Assembly: GCF_036785885.1 (NCBI RefSeq)
Contig: NC_092317.1
Coordinates: forward strand, 8,186,501-8,250,500
Reading direction: 5' to 3'
DNA: 64,000 nucleotides
Origin: Coffea arabica
Lineage: Eukaryota > Streptophyta > Magnoliopsida > Gentianales > Rubiaceae
This document shows positions 4,835 through 54,237 of the stretch, one piece after another. The number at the start of each line of letters is the position of its first letter. Within the stretch, counting starts at the first letter, position 1. The translations under genes and the position numbers were made by a program. The notes beneath the pieces were generated by a model that saw nothing but the letters and a program-made list of their open reading frames with translations, was not told where the DNA came from and searched no databases.

Positions 4835-5510
4835 GGCTCCATTTAGATTAGTTATTTTTAGACGCGTTTTTAAAATATTTTATTGTAATAATGTATATAA
4901 AAAATTTTTATTGTAAATATTTTTAGTGATATTTTTGAAAAATTTTTAAGATAATTTTTAAAATTTAACACTCCACCTGCTACCACTACCCACCATGGCC
5001 ACCGCCCTCTCTCTCTCCCTCCTCCTCTCTTCTTCCCGTCCCTCTTCCTCCTCCTCCCTCTCTCTCCTCCCATCCTTCCCTTTCCCTTCCCTTTCTCACC
5101 ACACCACACCCTGCCCCTCCCCTTTCTTCCCCTTCCCGATCTGGCCTCGTCGAGACCAGATCGCGGCCTTTGGTAGGCTAAAGGGGAGGAGGTGGGATGT
5201 GGTAGGGAAGGGGAGGGGAAGGGGAAGAAAAGAGAGGAGGAAGAAAGAGAGGGAGAAGGAAGAGGGAGGGAGAGGAAAGAGGAGAAAAGAGGAAGAGGAG
5301 GAAGATGATGGGTGGGGGTAATGGTGATGATGATAGATGGAAGAAAAAGATAGTGTAGATTTTATTTTTTAATTTTTTTTTGTATATTTGGAGTTATTTT
5401 TAATATATTGTATGAATATGATATTTTTGGAGTTGTTTTTGTTTGTATATTATTGTAACATTGTATATAAAAAACTTGTTTTTCAAAAAATGGAAAATAC
5501 AAACAAAGCC
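4835..5510. mobile_element. foldback element with polypyrimidine/polypurine core
   Basis: The ends form imperfect terminal inverted repeats: the left end starts ggctccattta and the right end reads the same way on the other strand (ggctttgtttg), with further matching T-rich sequence inside. The core is C/T-rich from about 4984 to 5140, then A/G-rich from about 5187 to 5320, so the arms are roughly complementary around a GC-rich hinge containing gatctgg and ccagatc. I could not define a clean target-site duplication. The element at 53295-54237 has the same architecture. Non-autonomous transposon is the likely explanation; the superfamily is uncertain. Confidence 0.55.
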
Positions 5511-38061: not shown

Positions 38062-39710
38062 AGACACAAAAAAGATTGAGAGAAAAGATGGATACCTTTC
38101 TGCTTTCTGGGAGAAATCTTCAAGTACTGGAAAGTGGGGAGTATCTGTTCCGTGAACTGGATACAGAGTTATAGCAAGACTAGGCAATGGTTGACCAAGA
38201 ATCGGAATCTTAGTGTGATTCTTAATTTCTGTAAAATCCAACGGATATTAGTCGAATACCCAAATCCAACGGTTGGAAGACAAGATCCCTGGTAAAACAC
38301 CAAGAGTTAATATAAGTATTTTCTTTTTTTTTAACCATATTTTACAGCAGTAACTTTTACAGTGTTGTTAATTTTGTATTCAAAACTGTCCAGGTACAAT
38401 CATAATTGAGGAATAAAAGAAGTGCACTTGCAAATAAAAATGGCAAGACGAAATTAAGAATCTTGAATGTGTAACAAATTTATCGACCCTGTAGCTGAGA
38501 AGTAAGATTAAAAATAAAATACAACGGGAGTACATCAGGCGGAAAATTTTCAACTTGCTATCCACAGCATAACATGTACTAGTGTTTAAGGCACAACCTA
38601 ACGTATGTACAATTAACAAAAAAATATATTTATCACAATTATCTCTTTGAAATTTATTTTTTTATGGATTTCGTGGATCCAATTCCATTATAATGTAGAT
38701 AATCATACATGAAACGAAGATGATGGAAGTAGAGAAGAATATGTGGGGATTGGAAGTTAGTATGAGAAGGTTGTAGTTAGTTGATAACTATCTTTTGATT
38801 CCAATAACTATATGCAATTGAAACAAATTTGTCCTTATAATTAAGAGTATATTAGAAATTTTAAAGAATGATACTGTACGTTTACATTATATAGTGACAC
38901 TCTCCCTTTATATATTGTATAGATAAAGATTAATAGATAATAGAGATAAGGATAAATTTGAAAACACACAAAATTAACATCAAATTAACTATCTACACAG
39001 GCTTTGTTATTGTAAAGATAATATGGAACTCCTAATCTAAATTTCCAAATTGGTTTGTCTATTCCAAAAAGTAGTTCAAGTGCTTAATTTTTTGAAATGT
39101 AAGAATTTAATAGGGAAGTATTTAAATCAAGTATGAAATAATAAACATGAGCATGTTCGTAAGGTAATTTTACTACAAACTAAATGCACCTACGAGTGCC
39201 TACTGAGCATCCATTTTAAAAGGCTTTCACGAATTAGTTGTGTTTTGCTCTACTTTTCCAGTACTGCTGTTAGCATTCCAGCTACTCCTTCTGAATATGG
39301 TGGCGACTTCTGTTTTGCTGAATTTGATCCCAACTTCCAGTTCAATTTCACCATTCTTCCAATACCCTAATCAAGTTGCCATTTTAATGGTTCCTTTTAT
39401 CTTTTCTGTCATTACTTTCTTGTCCCATGAATCTTTCGAGGTTCCTCATAATGTCAAATACTCAAAGGAACACCTAAACAGATTTGATAAAAGTGGCTTC
39501 TACGTATGAAAGAAGTTTCGAACTTGGCAAATCTAAGAGGGGAAAAAAAAAAAAAAAACCTTATCTTATCCTTCGCTACCCCGCTAGGAAGCCTGCTTGG
39601 ATGGGATGTATCTTGCAACTCTTGCAGTCCTACCAAATGAGTCAGCGCCAACTATATAGCTCCATTTGGGTTCATGCATTCAAACCTGTAAATAATCGCG
39701 GAGCAGGTCA

Positions 39711-39790
39711 TGGTCTAGTGATTAATGTTTAAGATTTTCGACTTCAGATTTTCCTTTTTTTCTCATGATTTTTTAAATTTCATTTCTTTC
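39711..39790 (+). mobile_element. degenerate SINE-like sequence
   Basis: ggtctagtgattaatg followed by gattttcgacttcagat resembles the tRNA-like head (box A and box B) of the SINE at 21715, then grades into T-rich sequence. No target duplication was found. Confidence 0.3.
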
Positions 39791-40439
39791 CTATTTCTAA
39801 AAAAACTTGTACCTAAGCAACTTTCCACGGGCCAAGCTGGACTTTTTTTTTTTATTAGAAAGGAGATTATAATTTAAAAAGTGGATACTACACTAATCCA
39901 TCCCCTATAATATAGCAATATTTTCAATTGAAGTGTAACTGGGTCTGACATCCCAATTTGTGGATAATTTGATCTTATGTACCTCACATGATTCTCCACA
40001 ATGATTAGTAATTGACATGGATGTAAAAGTATGACTGAGATTATCCCTTGTTTACAGGGGATGTTTTAGCTAATTTGTCAAGTGGTATTCCCTACATAGC
40101 AGGAAGGTATAAACTATAAACTATAAACTCATTAAGCCACATTCCTGTTTTGACCTTTTATCCCCAAAAAAAAAAAAAAAAAAATTCAACGAATTCTCAT
40201 GGGTAAAATAAAGGATTTTGTACTTTAAAGCATCGAGGAATTCTTGCTTCTTGATTCATTTGAAAACATCAACCTAGTGGAGGTTTTAGTTTCATTTGTA
40301 AGATGGGAGAATTGCGTTCTTGTTTGGGTTTGGTGGCTTGTAATTAGGCTTTTGGTAGATGAAAATCGAGAAGGGGGAGAAAGAGTGTTTAGATTTGGTG
40401 GCCATTTTTTTTTAAAACAAAGGGAATGAAGTGTGTCCA

Positions 40440-40640
40440 TTTTTGCCCTAAAAATTATGGGCACGTGACAGGACATGTGGTTTTTAACCGAATAAGTGAG
40501 TGGAGATGAGATTTAGGACTAATCAGGCAGATAATTTATATGTTAAGGACTAATGTGGCTGATTTTTAATGTAAGGGGCCAAAATTCTTTTTTTTTTTTT
40601 TTTTTAAAATGCGAGGAACCAATTTGACAATTTTCCCAAG
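40440..40640. mobile_element. probable decayed MULE terminal repeat
   Basis: The right edge (ggaaccaatttgacaatttt) and internal phrases (gtggctgatttttaatgtaa) follow the same pattern as the Pack-MULE terminal repeat (ggaaccaatttggcaaattt; tggctgattttatatgtaaa). A matching left end was not located. Confidence 0.35.
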
Positions 40641-41203
40641 TATGTAAATGAAGAAGCCAACTTGTCATCTTCTAGTTGGAGAATAACCCGCCAACAATTG
40701 AAACCACCTAATTGCTTGTTTGACAACCAAAAAAATTGATTCAGATGTTTTCTTATCACTTCTAGCATTGGGACAATGAGTTTGTCGCTCAAATCTTTGA
40801 CAAATTCATTTATGAAAAATCATGTCACGTCTAGATTACTTTGCTTTTTTTTTTTTTTTTGAACCCTTTCGTCCCTCCTTACACCCTTCTCACTTCTAAT
40901 TGTCAAGTATAGATTCGAATCAAGAATCCTTCTTCAAATCAAGAAAAATTCTAAAAACCCTCCTCTGACCATTGGGCTGATCCCAATGGTTAGATTACTT
41001 CATATATTTATTTCTTTGGATATATCAATTACTAATTTTTTTTAATATTCGGTCACTTCATAAAGTCACGTGAGGTGCATATGACCGAATCAGTCACAAA
41101 TTAGGTTTTCCGAACCAATTACATCTAATTGAAATTATTGTGATGTCATAGAAGGTGCGTATTGTGATGTCATAGAAGCTGCATTAGTTTTTAGAATTTT
41201 GCT

Positions 41204-41328
41204 CATGACAGTGTATACACTATCACCGTTTGATTCATGACATGTGTGTAAAAGTTGAATTTCAAGTTCAAATTTTGTATAATTATCATTTGTCCAACAC
41301 TGATAGTATATACACTGTCAGTGTAGGA
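41204..41328. mobile_element. small MITE with gacagtgtata-type inverted repeats
   Basis: The left end reads gacagtgtatacactatca and the right end, on the other strand, gacagtgtatatactatca; the element is about 125 bp with no coding capacity. Weak relatives may lie at about 29848-30090 and 56870-56990. Confidence 0.6.
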
Positions 41329-41770
41329 AAGATTAATTTAAGTTTAAAAATACTTGTGTTAAAAGTATTTCTTTATAAGTTATCGTAACCTCAAATTGGA
41401 TCATTGCCATGCAACTTAACTGATATAAACATTAATCAGCTGAATGTGAAATTTTTTATTTAACTCATAAATTTTTCCCTTTTCCACTTCTCATCTTATA
41501 CGATTTAGAGTTTCACTTGAACTAAAAAAAGATGATGGAAGTGTTCGCGAAAAATAGTTGTTTGCATCTGTAATGGGAACAGAGCCATGAGCATATCTTA
41601 AGTTTGGAATATCCATTAAAGATGGGGCTTCTCATCAACAAAAGACAACTGTGGCAAGTCTACCCACCTTTTTTTTTTTTTTGGTTGGTCGGTCTGTTGT
41701 ACATTATTCTAGGTATCTTAGTCAGTGTGGATATCCTTTTAACTCAAACAAAGATAGATATATATATATA

Positions 41771-42935
41771 GGGAAATTTGCCAAATTGGTCCCTAACATT
41801 TACCAAAAACACTTTTTTAGTCCTTTACATATAAAATCAGCCAAAATGGTCCTTCACATTTAAATTGTGAGCCAATGTGGTCCTATTGCTCGTTTTTGCT
41901 CATTTCTCCGACTAAAAATAACACGCCTCTCTCACGTGATCATATTTTTAGGGGCAAAACCGGAAACACATTTCATTACCTGTTAAAAGTAAAAGGTGTG
42001 GACAACCACCAAAATACACATTTCACCTTTGGCCCTCAAAGTTTCAAGAAACCCTAAATTGCATCCCACCGCCACGCCCTCAACTGACTCAGCCACCTCC
42101 TCCTTCACTATCCCTTCTCCTCTCTCCACTGTCCGTCCTCCCCTTCCCCCTCCTCATCGCCAGCATTTCTCCAACCTCCGGCGAGTTATCTTCTTCGACG
42201 ATGATATTGATGCGAGGGACTCGCAAGACGAGGGAAAGGATGAGGAAGAGCACCAGGAGAACGAGAAGGAGCTTCTCGAGCTGGAGCCCCGAATCGGATC
42301 TTGCCAGGTCCAGGAAGCTGCCGATGAGTTGTCTGTGGGAGGTGTTGAGGAGGCTCCCGCCTCCAACACTGTTGTCGGTGGCCAGGGTTTGCAAAGGATG
42401 GAGGGACACTAGTAAGCGGCTTTGGCGGGCGGCGGAGGAGCTGAGGCTTAGGGTTCCAGCTAAGGCCCAAATTGGATTCGTGGGATCGATGTTGCACAAA
42501 TGTCCTGGACTTGTTAGACTCTCACTCAGAATGGAAAGGTTAGGACTTTCGGATATAAGTAAACAAGAACCAGATCTATGGATTCATCAAGCACATAACT
42601 TATACAGGAGAATTACAAAATAATTTTCGCCACCATTCGGGGATGCAATTCAGGTTTCTTGAAACTTTGAGGGCCAAAGGTGAAATGTGTATTTTGGTGG
42701 TTGTCCACACCTTTTACTTTTAACAGGTAATGAAATGTGTTTCCGGTTTTGCCCCTAAAAATATGATCACGTGAGAGAGGCGTGCTATTTTTAGTCGGAG
42801 AAATGAGCAAAAACGAGCAATAGGACCACATTGGCTCACAATTTAAATGTGAAGGACCATTTTGGCTGATTTTATATGTAAATGACTAAAAAAGTGTTTT
42901 TGGTAAATGTTAGGAACCAATTTGGCAAATTTTTC
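41771..42935. mobile_element. Pack-MULE carrying an F-box gene fragment
   Basis: A 1,165-bp element with terminal inverted repeats of about 295 bp (41771-42066 and 42637-42935) that differ at only a handful of positions, so insertion or repeat homogenisation is recent. Ends read aaatttgccaaattggt on both strands. The 570-bp interior is markedly more GC-rich than the surroundings and contains part of an F-box gene. Flanks are atatatata and tatatatat; they fit a 9-bp duplication but lie inside a TA microsatellite, so this is not decisive. No transposase is present. Capture of host exons between MULE ends defines a Pack-MULE. Confidence 0.9.
42201..42538 (+). pseudogene. captured first exon of an F-box protein gene
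   Basis: Starting at the ATG at 42201, the frame encodes a basic Arg/Ser-rich leader, then an F-box core: LPMSCLWEVLRRLPPPTLLS, VARVCKGWRDTSKRLWRAA, and LRLRVPAKAQIGFVGSMLHK continuing CPGLVRLSLRMER. F-box proteins bind SKP1 in SCF ubiquitin ligases; the sequence after the F-box suggests the start of a leucine-rich-repeat-like region. Similarity stops at 42538, exactly where a gttagg donor follows; the next 28 codons to the stop at 42623 look like intron. The fragment therefore appears to be exon 1 plus the start of intron 1, lacking all substrate-binding repeats. A longer open frame in another phase (41996-42412) is a shadow. The parent gene is not in this window. Confidence 0.82.
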
Positions 42936-42970
<35 letters not shown>

Positions 42971-52318: not shown

Positions 52319-53294
52319 TTTTCAAGCCAAATCCATAGTATGGATCTACAACGATTGCTTTTGCTTTTCTTTATACCGTCTTAGGTTCCTTTTTTGTTTC
52401 TTCATTTTTCCCTTTTTGGTAGTGTCTTCCACTATTGGAACCCATACACAGGTCCTTTCTTGAAACGTATGTAAATTGTTGGATACATTATTTGTTTGTA
52501 CTTTTTGAGAATAATTGAGAGTTCTATGAAAAGGTATGAGGTGCTTTGAAAGTGTTCAAATGTACCAAACATAAGAAATTTACTTGCATTTATTCAATTT
52601 CGTGCAACATATCCTTGAACAGGAAAGAAAAACTGATCCATATAATAATACGGAGAATAAATTTGATCTTGACACTAGAGTCTTAAGATTTATAACTAAA
52701 AATTTTAGTTTCATTTTTTCTTTTGGTTTACTGATATATTTTTTTTTAAAAAAAAATATTAGGTAAGAATAAATTAAGAGGAGCAAAATTTCCACTGCAA
52801 TATGAAGGGGATTAAACGAATTCGTAATAATCTCCCAAAAAAAAAAAGTAGATTACAACGCAAGAAAAGGAACCAAAGACCCATATGCTCCAAATTGCAT
52901 GTCTTCAACTGTTACTCTTAGAACTTGAGTGAAGGGACAGATCGAAACAAGCTGCAAATGGAAGATATCTCATGAAAAAGTCGATAGAATTGTTTTCAGA
53001 AGGCAACGCAGTTGTATTTACTGTTTTTGTGCTTCTATCATTCATGGTACATTCAATTTTGGTCAAAAGAATAGAAATTGTTCCTATATACAAAAGTAAA
53101 TGCAATTACCTGTTTGATGAAGATTATTCTTGCCAAACAAACAAACTTACCGGGGTCATATTATAACTTAGGCAAAATTTAGGAGAGTTAAATGTAATTT
53201 ATGCAGAGACCATTTTTATCATTTCACTATTTTCCCAAAAATGACTAGTTGGGCACTTGAACTTAGATGTCATTACCTCTCCAGACCAATCTAC

Positions 53295-54237
53295 GGTCCC
53301 GTTTGGAAGGTGAGTTTTTTGGGTGTTTGTCTAAAACTTTACTGTAGATTACTGTAGAAGTTGTAAGAAAAATTTTTAGGATGAAAAACTTTTTTTCTTT
53401 CTTTCTCTTTTTCTTTTTTCTTTTCTTTCCTCTCTTCTTCTTCTCCCTTCCCCCTCCCCCTGCACCTCTGCCTCTGATGTAGAAGATCCAGCAACCATGT
53501 TTCCAATTTTTTTGTCCCTTTTTTGCCCTCTTCTCCCCCTCCCTGTCACCCTCCGATGCCAGAGAATTGCGGCCATGGATTTTTTTTTTTTTTGCCTTTT
53601 CTCTCCCCCTCTCCTCTCCCTTTCCCGTCACCCTCCCCTCCCCCTAGTTGCGATCTGGTCGCCCAGCAGCCATCTTGCAATTTTTTTCCTTTCTTTGCCC
53701 CTCTTCTCCCTCTCCTCTCCCCTCCCCCTCGCCCTCCGAGGCTAGAGCTTGCAACCATGGATTTTCTTTTTTTTTAGCTTTTTCTCTCCCCCTCTCCTCC
53801 CCTCCCCCTCCTCCCTCCCCCTTTGTGATCTGGTCGCGCAACCAAATCGTAGCTAGCGGGAGGGGGAGGGTGGCGAGGGAGGGAGAGAGACAGAGGGGAG
53901 GGGAGGAGAGGAGGAGAGGGGGTGAGGGGGTGAGGGAGAGGGAGAGAAAAAAAAAAAAAAAAAAGGAAGGCCGGCATAGGTGACCAGCTCCAAGAGTGGT
54001 GGTGGAGGTGGTGGTTGGCGACAGAGGACGTGGTGGGTTGGGTGAGGGAGGAAAAAGAAGAAAAGTTGAAGGGAAATTTTTTGTGTATTACAAAAGTTGA
54101 AGAAAAGTTGAAGGGAAAATTTTTTAAGTGTGTAGGTTAAAAACTTTGATAAGTTTTTTGGGGTTCCTGTAGTAAAAGTTGTTAAAAAACTAGAAGCATA
54201 CAAATTTATAAAAAACTTGGGGTTTCAAACAGGCCCT
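53295..54237. mobile_element. foldback element with polypyrimidine/polypurine core
   Basis: Imperfect ends (gtcccgtttgg at the left; gggcctgtttg on the other strand at the right) enclose C/T-rich sequence from about 53395 to 53825 and A/G-rich sequence from about 53858 to 53965. The pyrimidine arm contains about three degenerate tandem units, each with tctcctctcc-type runs and a gatctggtcg- or ccatggatttt-like block. The gatctggtcg motif is shared with the element at 4835-5510. Flanks ccaatctac/acaatttag match at 6 of 9 positions. Several predicted frames here are composition artefacts. Confidence 0.55.

Follow-up and report, generated by a model that had tools for sequence, protein, structure and literature searches.

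The segment between positions 41771 and 42935 of the window (the 64,000-nucleotide stretch of Coffea arabica DNA analysed here) is very probably one copy of a multicopy Pack-MULE that carries a captured fragment of a host F-box/LRR gene as a neutral passenger. Its parts and immediate flanks are the following (positions are those of the window):

41754..41770, no strand: (TA)n flank on the left side of the insertion site, matching the other side over 8 or 10 bp; the C7 site is empty.
41771-42935: Pack-MULE copy of 1165 bp, a non-autonomous Mutator-like element.
41771..42066, plus strand: left terminal inverted repeat (TIR), beginning GGGAAATTTGCC; both arms are also present in 25 sister copies.
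42067..42538, plus strand: captured 3' part of parent exon 1, with the acidic leader, a complete F-box, the start of the LRR and one extra C.
42201..42623, plus strand: 140-aa frame opened by the insert's first ATG, comprising a wrong-frame basic leader, the F-box and read-through intron.
42287..42290, plus strand: CCCC run with the one-base insertion (CCC in both parents).
42315..42428, plus strand: F-box domain according to Pfam, residues 39-76 of the 140-aa frame.
42539..42627, plus strand: first 89 bp of intron 1 of the parent, included in the capture and starting GTTAGG; the parent match extends to insert position 561.
42628..42639, plus strand: MULE subterminal sequence adjoining the right TIR, within the 42623-42650 match to the family element L076.
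42640..42935, minus strand: right TIR, with GAA as its outer end in the window copy.
42936..42953, no strand: (TA)n flank on the right side of the insertion site, matching the left side over 8 or 10 bp; the C7 site is empty.

The two arms, of 296 bp each, are 98.3% identical as an inverted repeat over 294 positions, far above chance, which bears out the near-identical repeats of about 295 bp in the original prediction and provides the long TIRs of a Pack-MULE (typically 100-500 bp according to an excerpt of PMC3310237). The outer end of the right arm is GGG in 24 of the 25 sister copies and GGA in L027, as against GAA in the window. The insert is GC-rich, as had also been described, with values of 0.535-0.585 in 200-bp windows over 42000-42499 and 0.485 at 42400-42599, the whole window standing at 0.344. 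TIRs (592 bp), capture (561 bp) and subterminal sequence (12 bp) account for all 1165 bp and leave no room for a transposase; the element can only be mobilised in trans. Since its flanks are a (TA)n microsatellite, matching over 8 or 10 bp with 9 bp out of register, the target duplication of the window copy is unreadable.

Other repeat structures occur in the window. At 40421-40637 (minus strand) there is a lone degenerate arm with some 69% identity to the TIR of the element, and a repeat search of 39700-41600 found no second arm for it. A near-palindrome at 41206-41337, whose two 57-nt arms lie 1 nt apart and are 74% complementary, recurs at many genomic sites and is probably a MITE. The stretches 4870-5361 and 53263-54224 are CT/GA-rich; long frames are open on both of their strands, and the only inverted repeats inside are short and imperfect.

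The insert was searched against the genome to which the window belongs (1.198 Gb, 131 contigs), and the resulting copy count may be a lower bound. At least 28 matches were scored, all 28 at 95-100% identity, and the 27 loci besides the window were fetched. Both TIRs are present in 25 of them, giving 26 complete elements with the window copy, and the other two are TIR-less. This search, proposed in the original prediction, therefore returned the parent gene plus at least 25 sister copies; an insert lacking any homologue outside transposable elements, which was to count against a Pack-MULE, is not what was found, since the two TIR-less loci match it. Target duplications of 9 bp, within the 9-11 bp of Pack-MULEs, are exact in 24 of the 25 sister copies. 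L009 has none: it is a full element copy with unlike 9-mers at its two ends, and for this reason one of its sides may have been rearranged after insertion. A comparison of 700-bp flanks between copies revealed no relationship apart from two pairs, whose matches lie in shared repeats.

The 23-base end of the TIR, with one mismatch at most, occurs at 364 places in the genome, and its reversed control at none. Among the approximately 100 places listed, eight facing pairs were fetched. One of these elements, L072, is 5.8 kb long, has TIRs 90-93% identical to those of the window copy and contains MULE, DBD_Tnp_Mut and SWIM domains (a MuDR-type transposase) in two separate frames, so that it appears to be a transposase-bearing relative and a putative full-length MULE. 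The seven smaller family elements have a central GC content of 0.477-0.648 in six cases and 0.377 in one. Six of these inserts were scanned with Pfam (L078 was left out), and host domains above the cut-off were found in one of the six, L076, while L073 gave one match below the cut-off and four gave none. L076 carries a subtilase fragment at L076:71-1177 (Inhibitor_I9 3e-14, Peptidase_S8 6.7e-13), indicating that this TIR family has taken more than one gene.

An intact F-box gene merely sitting between unrelated inverted repeats could also present an open frame and a Pfam F-box. However, the same repeats enclose the insert in 26 copies at different sites, the parent lies elsewhere and empty sites exist, so this reading is refuted and its probability is practically nil. 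The TA repeats around the window copy might, in turn, suggest a TA-duplicating DNA transposon of the Tc1/mariner type, but the 9-bp duplications of 24 out of 25 sisters and the MuDR-type domains of the element with related TIRs rule it out, leaving it a negligible chance. In contrast, the assignment to Pack-MULEs is supported by the parent gene, the 25 sister copies, the 9-bp duplications, the transposase-bearing relative and the empty sites.

The two TIR-less loci, C2:53088835- and C1:58629178-, match insert positions 1-561 only, at 95.5% and 94.7% identity, respectively. They are the parent F-box/LRR gene, kept in place on two similar chromosomes. The surrounding 29.7-kb stretches of C1 and C2 align piecewise, the four longest pieces at 95.5-97% and shorter ones at 86-93%, with parts that cannot be aligned; repeat-like matches of 74-88% were left out of this comparison. 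Nine exons of the C2 locus, joined by eye at GT/AG, are in frame and encode an F-box protein with LRR, in which the F-box is above the Pfam cut-off and LRR_4, at 28 bits, slightly exceeds its own cut-off of 27. Given an open exon 1 at both loci and a continuous frame across the C2 exons, the parent does not seem to have been abandoned.

The parent gene is putatively FBL17-like. Beyond the elements, the only close F-box matches are the two parent loci, three more having E values of 0.5-0.83. A PDB sequence search placed the F-box of the insert weakly (SKP2, E 0.012). With the joined parent protein it returned three distinct sequences: two chains of F-box/LRR-repeat protein 17 (E 2e-7 and 2.7e-7) and a dynein regulatory complex subunit (6.5e-4). 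The two former matches were set aside as evidence for FBL17, as the "17" presumably follows animal naming and its coincidence with plant FBL17 is taken to be fortuitous. Arabidopsis FBL17 is described, in PMC2651519, as an LRR-type F-box protein without a close paralogue. In our literature search, Pack-MULEs and FBL17 occurred together in a single paper, where the gene is confined to the reference list, and Pack-MULEs and F-box in ten; no paper combined transduplication, F-box and Mutator-like elements.

The capture comprises the extra C and 560 bp of the parent gene: exon 1 contributes 471 bp, starting at the end of codon 63, and intron 1 a further 89 bp. The first 188 nt of coding exon 1, with the start codon and an N-terminus containing a CGRCGLPKKGHSC motif, were left behind at the parent, where the next exon past intron 1 starts TGATGTGG. 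Thus, of the F-box first exon that was thought to have been captured, the 3' part is indeed there; the 5' 188 nt are missing and intron 1 is included. Nor does the capture end exactly at the GTTAGG donor (42538/42539), as proposed, since similarity to the parent continues for 89 bp more, to about 42627. Positions 42623-42650 are identical (28/28) in L076, so the last 12 bp before the right TIR are element sequence, and the ATTTT at 42623-42627 is also found in the parent intron. By inspection, the sequence common to parent and MULE is this ATTTT at the right breakpoint; at the left one it is TCCC (42064-42067). These shared bases fit a capture by template switching during repair, which would have taken place at the 4- and 5-bp shared sequences; this is a model discussed for Pack-TIRs in PMC8277862.

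Pfam recognizes a complete F-box in the insert, as predicted (F-box-like PF12937, E 3.6e-8; F-box PF00646, E 9.4e-8). The "basic leader" reported in front of it is a different matter. In both parents an acidic leader (SFDDDIDARDSQDEGEDEEE... on C2) reads into the F-box, and the first ATG of the insert opens only 41 aa without F-box. The extra C, present in 26 of 26 element copies and in neither of the two parents, puts the F-box frame into another frame of the leader, and hence the arginine-rich appearance of the latter. The alignment with both parents leads us to reject the basic leader as a captured parental coding feature: it is the acidic leader of the parent in another frame. Being common to all 26 copies, the extra C is most simply older than their spread. 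The first ATG reads through the whole F-box in 22 of the 26 copies; of the remainder, L017 has a stop within the domain and L031-L033 are broken by a 4-bp insertion. This linkage of ATG and F-box is no evidence of selection, since a random indel in the right phase would not be improbable.

With respect to mobility, the site on the matching chromosome is empty in all three informative cases: the window copy on C7 (flank identity 96%), L014 on C8 (97%) and L010 on C12 (92%), the sites of L014 and L010 each being a single uninterrupted target. The fourth flank, that of L013, is repetitive and uninformative in this respect; its copy at C8:46107358 (L013:200-1095) sits in a high-copy repeat with 40 scored matches at 81-100%. 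A separate insertion of 1180 bp with 136-bp inverted repeats (87%) is present at the matching C7 site (L080:225-1404) and absent from the window chromosome. Since the C7 site is empty of the element, the window insertion is later than the separation of the two chromosomes or was cleanly lost from one of them, the latter being less likely.

In an unrooted tree of the inserts the 26 copies split from the two parents with support 100/100, in a bootstrap that had not settled. The longest end branch is that of the window copy (0.028 vs. a median of 0.0054), which is also the most diverged of the 26: counted over the whole element, it shows 26 differences relative to the majority, 16 of them private (mean private 4.6). 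The absence of the element from the matching chromosome agrees with its having been considered young, yet within the family this copy is not a young one. TIR divergence, whose measurement had been suggested, amounts to 7/285 in the window copy and 2-14/285 across copies, differences that may be partly inherited and are therefore unfit as a sole clock.

The main steps of the spread can be read in this genome, and the mechanism of capture is what we infer. The extra C would have been gained before the spread. The element now occupies at least 26 sites and has generated 9-bp target duplications, the transposase probably having been supplied by full-length relatives such as L072.

No coding constraint on the F-box frame was detected by a comparison of nonsynonymous (N) and synonymous (S) changes over the 26 copies. 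The 140-aa frame shows 58 distinct substitutions (36 N, 18 S and 4 nonsense), and given the N fraction of 0.677 expected from the observed spectrum, the ratio is about 0.96 of neutral (p = 0.88). The four distinct nonsense changes compare with 4.25 expected, and one of them lies in L031-L033, where the frame was already shifted. The F-box part alone gives an N:S of 21:12 (ratio 0.84, p = 0.71). These figures do not support a functional F-box gene with a selected frame. Of the private changes over whole elements, 81/120 are C>T or G>A, an excess such as would be expected of methylated DNA. The best reading is that the fragment is a neutral passenger, although 22 of the 26 copies still read through the whole F-box, which the extra C makes possible, and the small number of changes per copy leaves room for weak selection.

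Two effects on the host have to be weighed against this neutral reading. In the first, siRNA or antisense RNA produced by the dispersed elements could silence the parent F-box/LRR gene, which, were it FBL17, would be a key cell-cycle gene. The 26 copies would suit such a role, as would the 218 of 540 possible 21-mers that the window copy shares with the parents (218-366 over the copies), and a review describes Helitrons, Pack-MULEs and Sireviruses with captured sequences as siRNA reservoirs in maize (PMC13317346, from an excerpt). However, exon 1 of the parent is open at both loci and the C2 exons are in frame, and we regard silencing as unlikely. The 140-aa frame could, on the other hand, be translated into a putative repeat-less F-box peptide competing for SKP1/ASK proteins. 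The insert has its first ATG at 42201, with an A at -3, the F-box is read through in 22 of the 26 copies, and the TIRs of Mutator elements hold promoters according to part of PMC3310237. Against this stand the neutral N:S, the three copies re-broken by the 4-bp insertion and the one stopped inside the F-box, and two upstream ATGs in other frames; a competitor peptide is accordingly a highly improbable reading. The fuller scenario is that a start-less exon was turned by a one-base insertion into a frame of 140 aa with an overprinted leader and an F-box, present in at least 26 copies and acting on an FBL17-like cell-cycle regulator either as a dominant-negative peptide or, in combination with siRNA, as a layer of silencing; it must be considered very improbable. 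If the passenger fragment influences the host at all, it would do so mainly through siRNA or antisense RNA directed at the parent rather than through a protein.

The window element is a well-documented Pack-MULE, a clear but ordinary case of this known kind. Like the Pack-MULEs of rice, maize and tomato (excerpts of PMC3310237 and PMC8277862), it is non-autonomous, with long TIRs, a 9-bp duplication, a GC-rich host fragment and multiple copies through transposition, and its 1165 bp lie within the commonest size class in tomato, 1000-1200 bp (PMC3310237, same excerpt). It differs from them in host and parent, and because here the copies share a one-base insertion that links the captured domain to a new ATG. 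The tomato PM-ZIBP family, which that excerpt describes with 14 copies of one gene fragment, likewise has an identified parental gene, but 13 of its 14 copies have tandem TIRs, while single TIRs, at least 26 copies and another gene are found here. With the autonomous MULEs of the MuDR/MURA type there is kinship through L072, of the same TIR family and with MULE, DBD_Tnp_Mut and SWIM domains, from which the window element is set apart by its lack of room for a transposase and its mobilisation in trans only.

One genome thus yields the parent, a transposase-bearing relative, 26 copies, empty sites and breakpoints, which makes this an unusually complete Pack-MULE case. It also illustrates that a frame shift common to the copies can give a passenger the look of a new protein made by design. 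Should the parent prove to be FBL17, the copies would concern a key cell-cycle gene, and the siRNA question could be put directly to the test.
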